A DNA stretch of 64,000 bases, taken from the NCBI RefSeq assembly GCF_007004735.1, contig NZ_SSNL01000009.1, positions 1-64,000 of the forward strand. The letters are read 5' to 3'. This document shows positions 21,710-26,695 of the stretch, piece after piece. The position numbers and the translations under genes are program-made. Within the stretch, counting starts at the first letter, position 1; each line of letters starts with the position of its first letter. Under the pieces are notes generated by a model that saw only the letters and a program-made list of their open reading frames with translations, was not told the DNA's origin and searched no databases. Source of the stretch: Salinigranum halophilum. GTDB lineage: Archaea > Halobacteriota > Halobacteria > Halobacteriales > Haloferacaceae.

Positions 21710-22963
<1,254 letters not shown>

Positions 22964-23086
22964 CTGTAACTTCACATACGAAGTAGTGTTTTATACTTTC
23001 TACGTCTGGTGTGGGGGAGTCGGACTGCTATCGTTCGTGGTTTGTCGGATTCCTCCGATGACTGAACTCGTGGGGTTCCTCCTTGC

Positions 23087-23218
23087 AACTATCTGAACAA
23101 TCGCATCCACATCGTACACGAGAGCGAGTGCAAGAACTTGATTGGCAACGTCGTGAACGAGCTGCTCTCGCTCATGTCGAAATTTCTCGACGACCGGGAA
23201 CGCCCGGTCTCGCGCTAG
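23087..23218 (+). pseudogene. 3' fragment of an unrecognised gene cut by the tnpB element
   Basis: Just outside the left end of the tnpB element an open frame encodes ~43 residues (NYLNNRIHIVHESECKNL ... RERPVSR) and stops at 23216-23218. It has no start codon of its own and ends against the converging lipid-kinase gene. I do not recognise the family. A GACCGGG-AAC-GCCCGGTC palindrome lies at its end. Confidence 0.4.
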
Positions 23219-24105
23219 CTCGGATTCGGGTCGTACCCCGCACCCACCCGAAGCGAGAGGGCCCGGGGGAGCACCGACAGCGAGAGCCGGTTCCGGCGTG
23301 TCAACTCACCGTCGAGGCTGAACGTCACTGGCTCTGTCCCCTCGATCGTCACGGTCTCGGCGCGGAGGTGGGTCACGCCGTCGGTCCCGCGGGCGAGCAG
23401 GCGGTGAATCGCCGCTTCGGCCACCGCGTTCGCCGGCGGCATCTCCTCGACGACGACCACGTCGAACTGCCCGTCGGCCATTGCGGCCTGTCCGCCCTCC
23501 TCGACGAACTTCCGGGCGTTGCCCACGAGAACCGACAGCGCCGACCCGTCGAAGACGACCTGGTCGCCGGTGGTGACGCGGATGTCGAGCGAGTCGAACG
23601 AGAGCGTCTCGCGGGCACCCGAGACGAGGAAGGCGAGCGTCCCGAACCGGGTCTTCAACTCGTCGGAGGCGGCGGTACTGGCGTTCGCCGGCAGTCCGCC
23701 GACGGCGCTCACGACGAACGGCTGGTCCGCGGCGACGCCGACGTCGACCGTCTCGACCGCCCCCGTGTCGGCCACCTCGATACCGTGGTCGAGGTCGCGA
23801 ATCCCGAGCGTGCCCGCGAGGAGGTTCGCCGTTCCGCCCGGCACGACCGCGAGCGTGACGTCACCGAGCGCATCGACGTCGTACAGCCCGCGGACGACGT
23901 CGTTCACCGTGCCGTCGCCACCGCACACCGCGAGCGTCGAGACGCCGTCTCGCCCGGCCTCGCGAGCGCAGGCGACCGCGTGGGCCTTGCTCTCGGTCTC
24001 CTCGACGGCGAAGCCCCGGGCTTCGAGCCGCCGTCGCACGTAGGTCGCGTGGTCTGCGGTACCGCTTTTGGGGTTGAGCAGACACCGACGGGAACCGACC
24101 TGCAT
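23215..24105 (-). CDS. YegS/diacylglycerol kinase family lipid kinase
   Basis: The protein has about 296 residues. The N-terminal catalytic domain carries NPKSGTADH, the nucleotide-binding GGDGTVNDVVRG (about 75-87) and VPGGTANLLAGTLGI. A C-terminal beta-sandwich domain with FSLDGE, as in YegS/DgkB-type enzymes, follows. It would phosphorylate a lipid or sphingoid-like alcohol at the membrane surface; the archaeal substrate is unknown. The ATG at 24105 (MQVGSRRCLLNPKSG) gives the family-typical N terminus; the longer frame adds an unusual 25-residue leader. Moderately halophilic, acidic composition. Confidence 0.88.
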   Translation of the reverse strand: MQVGSRRCLLNPKSGTADHATYVRRRLEARGFAVEETESKAHAVACAREAGRDGVSTLAVCGGDGTVNDVVRGLYDVDALGDVTLAVVPGGTANLLAGTLGIRDLDHGIEVADTGAVETVDVGVAADQPFVVSAVGGLPANASTAASDELKTRFGTLAFLVSGARETLSFDSLDIRVTTGDQVVFDGSALSVLVGNARKFVEEGGQAAMADGQFDVVVVEEMPPANAVAEAAIHRLLARGTDGVTHLRAETVTIEGTEPVTFSLDGELTRRNRLSLSVLPRALSLRVGAGYDPNPS

Positions 24106-24513
24106 GGTTCGGCTCTGCAGCCACACGGTTTTATCTCGTCGGTTGTCTCGTGAGTCGGGGGCTGGTAGCTTACACCACAAGTCGGATGCCCACGTCTCCG
24201 TCCGGAAGCCTCAGGAGTGATACTTTCTCGTTCTGCCACGGCCGCGACACTGCGACGCCACTCGTAGACGAAACGGAAAACAACTGGTACGAGTCCTGCT
24301 GTCGGCAACTGAGAACGAGAGACCCAGTGAATCGTCTCGAACCTGAGTGCGCGCGAAGCGCTATCAGCTGCTGAAACAGGCCGTTTTGACGATGTGCGCC
24401 GACACGAGACGTTCCTTCCACTCACTTTTTCACTGAATACAGTATGTTTTAATCGCGGAGCTGTAACTTTTATACATCTAATTATTGATTTAATTTTAAC
24501 TATCTCGAATAAA
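24106..24513. other. Divergent intergenic region, no gene seen
   Basis: This ~400-bp spacer between the lipid kinase and the terpene-synthase-like gene becomes very AT-rich after 24425. I see no conserved coding frame or RNA gene. Confidence 0.5.
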
Positions 24514-24525
24514 TAATTTTATATT
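24514..24525 (+). promoter_or_regulatory. TATA box of the terpene-synthase-like gene
   Basis: TAATTTTATATT lies 28-39 nt upstream of the ATG at 24553, within a long AT-rich run. Confidence 0.5.
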
Positions 24526-24552: not shown

Positions 24553-25524
24553 ATGGCAACCAGTGTCACGACCAGACAGCTCCCGCGAATCGTCCGCGAC
24601 ATGACCCAGACCGAACTCCCACCGGAGTTCGATCCGCTCTTGGACCACTACGGCACACTGACCACCGACCGGGACCAGCTCCTCTGGCAGTGGCTCTACT
24701 ACGTGTTCCCCAGCTTCCGGCTCTCGTCGGTCCCCGACGAGTACGGCGAGCTCGCCCGGAAGGCGAAGTTCTGCTTCTCGGTGTACATGACCGTCCTCGA
24801 CGACCTCTCCGAACGCCACCTGGACAAAGAGACGTTCGAGCAGGGGCGAAAGATCCCGTTCTCGTCGACCCGATGCGACGTGGAGGCTCCTGGCGCCGAC
24901 ACCGAGGCGCTTGCACTCCTCCAAGAGTCGTGGGACCTCACGAAGGCGTATCTGAGCCGCGCTCCGAGACGCGGTGACTTCGAGGAACTGTTCGAGTTCG
25001 ACCTCCGGCAGTCGCTCAACACGATGGACTACAACCGCCTCGTGAACGAGGGCCCTCAGCTCGCGAGCCCCCGGGGCGCGGAGATGTACGACACGCACAA
25101 CATGCTGTTGTTCATCTACGTCGACATCGACCTCGCCTTCTCACCCGACTTCGACCTCGCGGACCTGGCGACACTCCGTGACGTGACGTGGGACGCCCAG
25201 CGGCTCGCCCGGATCGGCAACTGGGTCACCACCTGGGAGCGCGAACTCGACGAGTGCGACTACACCTCCCGCGTCGTCGTCGAGGCACTCGAACGCGGTG
25301 TCGTGACCGAGGCCGAGATCCGCGACGACGACGTACCGAACGAGACCATCGCCCACCGCATCAAAGACGCCGGTATCGAACACGAGCACCTGCTCTCGTG
25401 GAACGAGACCTACCGCAGCCTGGTCTCTCGAGAGTACGACGTCGACAGCGTCGACCTCCACTCGTTCGTCGACGGGATGCGACATCTCCTGGAGGTCGAC
25501 GTGAAAGCGCGCGGTCTGAAGTGA
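24553..25524 (+). CDS. Class I terpene synthase-like protein
   Basis: The protein has 323 mostly helical residues. Two motifs have the order and spacing of class I terpene cyclases: an aspartate-rich VLDDLSERH (D83, D84, E87) and an NSE/DTE-type triad GNWVTTWERE (N223, T227, E231), 140 residues apart. An Arg (R174) lies ~49 residues before the triad, near where the diphosphate-sensor Arg is expected. It would bind three Mg2+ and ionise a prenyl diphosphate; substrate and product cannot be told. No prenyltransferase gene adjoins it. The ATG at 24553 matches the TATA spacing. Confidence 0.65.
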   Translation: MATSVTTRQLPRIVRDMTQTELPPEFDPLLDHYGTLTTDRDQLLWQWLYYVFPSFRLSSVPDEYGELARKAKFCFSVYMTVLDDLSERHLDKETFEQGRKIPFSSTRCDVEAPGADTEALALLQESWDLTKAYLSRAPRRGDFEELFEFDLRQSLNTMDYNRLVNEGPQLASPRGAEMYDTHNMLLFIYVDIDLAFSPDFDLADLATLRDVTWDAQRLARIGNWVTTWERELDECDYTSRVVVEALERGVVTEAEIRDDDVPNETIAHRIKDAGIEHEHLLSWNETYRSLVSREYDVDSVDLHSFVDGMRHLLEVDVKARGLK

Positions 25525-25672: not shown

Positions 25673-26695
25673 ATGTCCGACCTCGATCCCGAGATTTACG
25701 AGGCCGTCTTCTACTCCATCGAGAATCCGGCACTGGTGATCGACCTCGACTTCGTCATCCGCGACGCGAACCCCGCCGCGGCGGCCTTCCTCCGGTACGA
25801 GGACCGCGAGGCGCTCATCGGGACGTACGTCCCGGAGATCCTGGTCGACGAGAGCATTCTGGAAGACGTCGCCGAGCAGGTCCTCTCGGACGAGCAGTGG
25901 GTCGGCGAGTGCGAACTCATGACGGCCGACAACCGCGTCTTCTACGGCATGGGGTCGGCCGTCCCCATCGAACGCGACGGGCAGACGGAGGTGCTCGCCG
26001 GCGTGTTCACGGACCTGACCGAACGCCGGCGCCACACCCGGGCGCTGCGGATTCTCAACCGCGTTCTCAGACACAACATCCGCAACGACATCAACGTCGT
26101 GCTCGGCCACGTCGAGCAGGTGGCGGCGCTGGTCGAAGACGAGGCCGCCGAGGCGTCGATGACGAAGGCGCGCGAGCGGCTGAACGACATCATCGACAGC
26201 GCCGACACGGCCCGCGACCTCGAACACCTCCTCAACACGCAAGAACGGGCCGTCGTCAACACGATGCGGCTCGACGAACCGCTCCGCTCCGTCGTCGGCC
26301 GGGCGGCGCGGGAGTTCGCCGACGCCGACATCAGCCTCGACGACGACCTCGAACCGGCCCACGTGGTCGCGAACGCCACCGTCGACCGCGTCTTCTGGGA
26401 GGTCCTCGAGAACGCCGTCGAGCACAACACCGCCGACTCCCCCCGGGTCGAGGTGACACTCGACGTCGGCGACGACCATGTCGTCGTCGCCGTCGCCGAC
26501 AACGGCCCCGGCGTGTTCGAGAGCCGCCGGCAGATGATCTTCGGCCGCGAGGAACTCGACCAGGTCCACCACGGCAACGGCTTCAGTCTCTTCTTCGTCG
26601 ACCAGGTGATGAAGACCTACGGCGGCGACGTCTGGGTCGAGACGAACGACCCCCACGGTGCGGTGTTCAAACTGCAGTTCACCCGCGCCTGGTGA
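25673..26695 (+). CDS. PAS-domain histidine kinase, soluble
   Basis: The protein has 340 residues. A PAS domain (~8-120, IENPALVIDLDFVIRDANPAA) closes with FTDLTERRRH. A HisKA-like domain with phospho-acceptor LRHNIRNDINVVLGH and a HATPase domain (ENAVEHNT, then ADNGPGVFE and GNGFSLFFV) follow. The H box LRHNIRND is the common haloarchaeal form. It lacks TM segments, so it senses a cytoplasmic signal. No response regulator is adjacent. Confidence 0.92.
   Translation: MSDLDPEIYEAVFYSIENPALVIDLDFVIRDANPAAAAFLRYEDREALIGTYVPEILVDESILEDVAEQVLSDEQWVGECELMTADNRVFYGMGSAVPIERDGQTEVLAGVFTDLTERRRHTRALRILNRVLRHNIRNDINVVLGHVEQVAALVEDEAAEASMTKARERLNDIIDSADTARDLEHLLNTQERAVVNTMRLDEPLRSVVGRAAREFADADISLDDDLEPAHVVANATVDRVFWEVLENAVEHNTADSPRVEVTLDVGDDHVVVAVADNGPGVFESRRQMIFGREELDQVHHGNGFSLFFVDQVMKTYGGDVWVETNDPHGAVFKLQFTRAW

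Follow-up and report, generated by a model that had tools for sequence, protein, structure and literature searches.

A Divergent Archaeal Family of Probable Class I Terpene Synthases Frequently Encoded Beside Sensory Regulator Genes

Results and Discussion

Identification of the Gene and Its Metal-Binding Motifs

A gene of the haloarchaeon Salinigranum halophilum probably codes for a class I terpene synthase with a single (alpha) domain, a member of a divergent archaeal family, and we put the probability of this reading at roughly 0.75, the activity being inferred. The gene lies in a window of 64,000 nucleotides, by which we mean the whole stretch of DNA that was analyzed. The case made by the fold and the metal motifs is strong; the chemistry and the regulatory tie are inferred. 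The features are listed in Table 1. The open reading frame, its position and the order of both motifs were confirmed as the sequence-only reading had given them. The closest named homologues, both from Salinigranum, were those of S. salinum (85%) and S. marinum (83%). A long A/T-rich stretch precedes the gene, and an A/T block is common to three Salinigranum loci. The invariant AATAATTTTAT, about 33 bp upstream of the ATG, fits what would be expected of a TATA box with a nearly leaderless transcript.

Table 1. Features of the synthase locus in the window.
Feature	Position	Strand	Remarks
Divergent class I terpene synthase gene (putative)	24553..25524	+	ATG at 24553, stop TGA at 25522-25524, 323 aa; based on ORF, relatives, fold and conservation
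A/T-rich TATA-like element	24513..24523	+	Identical in three Salinigranum loci
R40	24670..24672	+	Near-invariant Arg (90/91) 43 residues before the first motif; no assigned function
First metal motif, D83-D84-L85-S86-E87 (DDxx[D/E])	24799..24813	+	End of predicted helix 62-88; in register with the DDxxD of canonical enzymes
R220	25210..25212	+	Three residues before N223; kept in 85/91, Met in six Methanosarcina-type members
Second metal motif, N223-xxx-T227-xxx-E231 (NSE/DTE type)	25219..25245	+	Inside predicted helix 202-233; aligned to the NSE motif
PAS-HATPase sensor histidine kinase	25673..26695	+	340 aa; PAS_9 2.5e-9, HATPase_c 1.1e-17
ORF resembling a TnpB-type protein	21710..22975	-	Zinc ribbon (CSKCGH...CNECGY); judged by eye
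YegS/diacylglycerol-kinase-like gene	23215..24180	-	Diacylglycerol kinase family gene on the same side in S. marinum

Conservation was counted over 91 aligned members, drawn from both haloarchaea and methanogens, in 320 columns; L082 was excluded for want of an intact domain of more than 230 residues. D84, N223, and E231 were identical in all 91 members, while D83 and T227 were kept in 90, the exceptions being E and S, respectively. These five residues ranked 2nd to 10th in conservation among the 320 columns. Position 87 was E in 74, D in 13, and K in 4 members, and the four K arose from the aligner misplacing the DDSCD of Methanosarcina-type members. The latter are the most divergent members and carry the motifs DDxCD and N-xxx-T-xxx-E. 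Both class I signatures, DDxx[D/E] (E or D at position 87 in 87/91) and [N/D]xxx[S/T]xxxE, were met. The conservation of the motifs across the family is thus more than chance. Position 224, where Asp usually follows the first Asn, was Trp in 84 of the 91 members.

In bacterial-type terpene synthases the diphosphate-sensor Arg is part of helix G1 and lies some 46 residues ahead of the Asn of the NSE motif, and a C-terminal RY motif is a further feature. The sequence-only reading had placed an Arg where the diphosphate sensor is expected, and this claim was not supported. The sensor Arg of selinadiene synthase aligned to about E177 in a profile alignment, columns 174, 177, and 178 varied, and the 91-member alignment thus showed no sensor Arg conserved where the bacterial enzymes have theirs. 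Other strongly conserved Args were R209 (85/91) and R230 (89/91, Lys in two). R320, at the RY position, was present in 41/91 members, and the alignment is weak at the C-terminal end.

Predicted Fold and Relation to Known Terpene Synthases

The structure was predicted by AlphaFold2 from a 39-row family alignment (39 of 50 sequences, 11 near-copies being excluded). The model contained helices only, as had been claimed from the sequence, with a pLDDT of 93.9 and a pTM of 0.91. A fold unlike the terpenoid-synthase bundle would have refuted the terpene-synthase interpretation; every one of the 50 VIA-align rows shown was a class I terpene synthase, with Z from 19.7 to 21.8. Taxadiene synthase scored 21.8, TEAS 21.0, Sat1646 20.7, and T-muurolol synthase 20.6, all well above the Z of about 13 that unrelated helical bundles can reach. 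The best PDB matches in Foldseek were T-muurolol synthase (rank 1, E 1.8e-4), hydropyrene synthase, and 10-epi-cubebol synthase; rank 4 was an insect-type prenyl diphosphate synthase, and FPP synthases came further down the list. The helix positions of both motifs in the model fit a class I terpene synthase, a comparison made on helix positions only and not on coordinates.

Searches with the window protein alone were uninformative. It matched no Pfam family at E<=10 and gave only chance matches in NCBIfam, and a phmmer search of the PDB brought up no terpene synthase. We set aside as chance its weak matches to ribonucleotide reductase, MepM, and ribosomal L20. The family as a whole gave a clearer signal: PF19086 (Terpene_syn_C_2) matched 31 of 39 members at E<=1 (best 2.3e-8), and PF03936 weakly matched 7 of 39 (best 0.0055). 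In a whole-genome scan PF19086 matched in 36 of 194 genomes, 29 of them over the curated cut-off; 28 of these did so through the present family, and the 29th (G183) holds other enzymes. The window protein itself did not reach the PF19086 gathering cut-off, which members in 28 other genomes passed. PF19086 gave no match in any of 14 control genomes, so its silence in the window's own genome says little. With the family profile, a single PDB chain was matched at E values up to 10: Sat1646 (E 0.2), which has the terpene synthase fold and on whose RLSND.ASYERD the RIGNW.TTWERE of the family was aligned. When the family was compared by hhalign with ten canonical synthases (three archaeal and seven bacterial), the E-value was 5.8e-6 with both motifs in register, and it weakened to 2.2e-4 with the wider 91-row family. 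The fold matches and the PF19086 matches support the terpene-synthase interpretation, and the activity remains unproven.

The bacterial alpha-domain class I synthases of PF19086 (T-muurolol, selinadiene, and hydropyrene synthases, Sat1646) have the same length and all-alpha fold as the archaeal proteins. In both groups DDxx[D/E] closes the corresponding helix, a basic residue precedes the Glu of N-xxx-[S/T]-xxx-E, and two short helices are separated by a break at the position of the kink in helix G. The archaeal family differs in having only about 10% identity to them, W for D after the first Asn, a conserved RIGNW.TTWERE..GD context, and adjoining sensor genes; it lacks a conserved sensor Arg on helix G1 and, as far as the weak C-terminal alignment shows, a conserved RY end. 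Plant class I synthases (PF03936; TEAS, taxadiene synthase) gave the highest Z, within about 1 of the bacterial ones, but the archaeal family has no N-terminal beta domain, is 6-11% identical to them, and matches PF03936 only as weakly as given above. The R-xx-[N/D]-xxx-T-xxx-E spacing from R220 onward is that of R441/D444/T448/E452 in TEAS; this alignment (E 0.74) was not significant. A plant-type reading in the TEAS register is not taken beyond this remark, since hhalign against one TEAS fragment gave E 0.63-0.74 and the 39-row profile a different, wrong register.

The same fold and metal motifs would serve in a diphosphate-ionizing enzyme whose product is simple and linear, either a prenyl alcohol or a hydrocarbon, and not a cyclized terpene, and no cyclase-specific residue can be read from the sequence. 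Nothing was found against this alternative, which is a sub-case of the class I reading; we regard it as possible, if rather unlikely.

Neighboring Sensor Genes

The sequence-only reading had described the gene as standing alone, which was not supported. A PAS kinase gene starts 149 bp downstream on the same strand, an order also seen in S. marinum, and such a gene lies beside the relative in many genomes. Of the 121 loci found, the best 80 were named and entered the count. In 46 of these (57%), and by genus-level labels, which were assigned by hand, in 29 of 42, the synthase had a gene for a PAS kinase, a BAT-type regulator or a HalOD1 protein within 1 kb. BAT alone accounted for 30 of these best 80 loci. 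Control positions were set no closer than 4.5 kb to the synthase, and 169 of the 1761 had such a neighbor (9.6%). The regulator HMMs were seeded from synthase-proximal proteins, and in L063 they recovered all three places that Pfam BAT finds. Adjacency was absent in 34 of the best 80 loci, including 8/8 Natrinema and 6/6 Natrialba, and in four f28 methanogens.

According to domain scans, the synthase is accompanied by a PAS-GAF-BAT-HTH_10 regulator in Haloarcula and Halobaculum; Haloarcula also has a stand-alone HalOD1, and the window, Haloglomus, and Haladaptatus have PAS-HATPase kinases. The neighbor was found on either side of the synthase: if upstream, it was on the same strand or divergent, and if downstream, on the same or the opposite strand. 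In all six Methanosarcina-type loci a PAS-type kinase gene preceded the synthase on the same strand at 38-606 bp, and in L168 it encodes a PAS-HisKA_2-HATPase protein. In Methanohalobium a kinase gene was directly downstream in L160 and about 590 bp downstream in L159.

Such an association could merely reflect common synteny or the abundance of these genes in haloarchaea, without functional meaning. Pfam matches summed over 12 genomes came to 235 for BAT and 180 for HalOD1, and the 80 loci are related, so that the counts are not independent, as binomial p-values for them would assume. Against this stand the excess over the control positions and the kinase gene that precedes the synthase in every Methanosarcina-type locus. 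Moreover, adjacency persisted through 13 changes of orientation and partner type across nine labels of the tree. The Haloarcula BAT neighbor was searched against the 194 genomes, and the match positions were compared with the synthase positions by eye: its 17 best matches, and 18 of the best 20, adjoin a terpene synthase, and no later match among those listed does so. The adjacency to sensory regulators is non-random, and we consider it unlikely that it comes from common synteny or background abundance alone. For the window kinase, the three best non-self matches and the sixth adjoin a synthase (194 genomes); other paralogues score close behind, and its partnership is thus less exclusive. Inferred from gene order, this kinase is a probable functional partner of the synthase.

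In Natrialbaceae, a gene for an MBL-fold hydrolase lies divergently just upstream of the synthase in place of a sensor gene (L110, L115-L117, L127, L129, L135, L136, L141, L146, and L150).

No partner tailoring enzyme was recognized in the recurring neighborhood. A methyltransferase partner of the sodorifen-like kind, suggested by a gene beside the synthase in L168, was rejected, since none of the remaining five Methanosarcina-type loci has one in this position. Distant methyltransferase matches occurred in L166, next to a family fragment, and in L171, at a spacing of 2.4 kb.

Proposed Mechanism

In class I terpene synthases the two motifs bind three Mg2+ and trigger the loss of diphosphate, and the pocket steers the resulting carbocation. 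By analogy with that family, D83/D84/E87 and N223/T227/E231 would hold three Mg2+, which would pull the diphosphate off an allylic prenyl diphosphate. The substrate would most likely be geranylgeranyl or farnesyl diphosphate, both of which serve haloarchaea in making lipids and carotenoids. The host genome contains two prenyl diphosphate synthase genes, whose products could supply it. A closed pocket would then guide the carbocation to a cyclic or linear terpene, and with no tailoring enzyme recognized in the recurring neighborhood this product would probably be released unmodified. Metal use, substrate, and product are inferred, as is the notion that the output is governed by or feeds the neighboring PAS kinase; in other genera we infer the same role for the BAT-type regulator and the HalOD1 protein.

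The control of retinal synthesis by Bat in Halobacterium offers a comparison. There a regulator of the same PAS-GAF-BAT-HTH_10 type lies beside isoprenoid genes, and crtB1 (phytoene synthase), which is near, is regulated by Brz (PMC3184054). The Bat-bop-crtB1 system differs in that the genes are for phytoene synthase and opsin there and for a class I terpene synthase here, where control is only inferred. By this analogy, light or oxygen may act as the switch for terpene synthases linked to BAT.

A further reading is a synthase-receptor pair: the enzyme would make a membrane-permeant terpene, and the PAS sensor next to it, be it the PAS kinase or the BAT regulator, would bind this product. It would amount to terpene-based cell-cell or metabolic signaling, kept in haloarchaea and Methanosarcina-type methanogens, and would be comparable in logic to LuxI/LuxR or RpfF/RpfC with a terpenoid signal. 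We offer this reading only as a speculative and unlikely one.

The sensor genes could also be taken to mean that the protein is a catalytically dead terpene-synthase fold, acting as the ligand-binding subunit of the neighboring PAS/BAT sensor system, and W224 and the missing bacterial sensor Arg do depart from the canonical site. Dead paralogues, however, usually lose the metal-binding residues first, and here these are among the ten most conserved of the 320 columns, which leaves this option improbable. A chain-elongating prenyl diphosphate synthase or a relative of squalene/phytoene synthase has the all-alpha superfamily fold in common and is represented lower in the Foldseek list by FPP synthases, but it is highly improbable, given that the second motif is N/T/E and not a second DDxxD, that polyprenyl_synt (PF00348) and the squalene/phytoene Pfam families did not match the window protein at E<=10, and that the VIA-align rows were terpene synthases throughout.

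Distribution in Archaea and Significance

Enzymes of this kind are known mainly from bacteria, fungi, and plants. Terpene cyclases had been called rare in archaea in the sequence-only reading, a statement that needs qualifying for the present family. Relatives were found in 60 of 194 haloarchaeal genomes across the class, and no stops occurred inside the matches listed. A profile search of the phylum (392 genomes) gave matches in 39. Outside the class, strong matches came from two Methanohalobium-type genomes (including Methanohalobium sp. NZ_JAHENT010000092.1) and four of family f28, and weaker ones (1e-23 to 1e-27) from six Methanosarcina-type genomes (L167-L172). Only partial matches, several with in-frame stops, were obtained in G395, G281, G359 (f14), and G449 (f31). 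The broken and partial members of f14 and f31 suggest decay in some archaeal lineages of the phylum.

The family is not annotated as terpene synthase in the records seen, and all six haloarchaeal plasmid copies are named 'hypothetical protein' by NCBI. No paper describing it was found in the open-licence PMC literature, subscription journals being outside the scope of the search. Two papers mention antiSMASH 'terpene' clusters in archaea (PMC8600319, PMC10105419), and the latter states that, besides halocin and bacterioruberin, no archaeal gene cluster has been confidently tied to a secondary metabolite (PMC10105419). With members in methanogens and in roughly one in three of the haloarchaeal genomes searched, the family would bring the third domain of life systematically into class I terpene chemistry. 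The synthase gene is a short, expressible target for work on archaeal secondary metabolites. The link to BAT and PAS proteins raises the questions of whether archaeal terpenes are made on a light or oxygen cue, and whether archaea sense them.

Canonical synthases also exist in haloarchaea and constitute a separate family. The plasmid-borne enzymes of Actinarchaeum halophilum and Halocatena marina likewise have a class I terpene synthase domain, but they differ in their strong PF19086 match (1.4e-49), an SRPBCC-like N-terminal fusion, and a neighboring prenyl diphosphate synthase gene. The plasmids concerned are those of L151 (G183 C3:56001-75000; NZ_CP071308.1, A. halophilum) and L173 (NZ_CP110250.1, H. 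marina). Actinarchaeum carries two canonical copies within 3 kb, and the products in both hosts are annotated as hypothetical or SRPBCC proteins. In the present family, some genomes have two or more members on a single contig, separated by distances of up to tens of kb, as for L107/L132 (PXRR01000022.1), L120/L130 (NZ_NXNI01000001.1), and L141.
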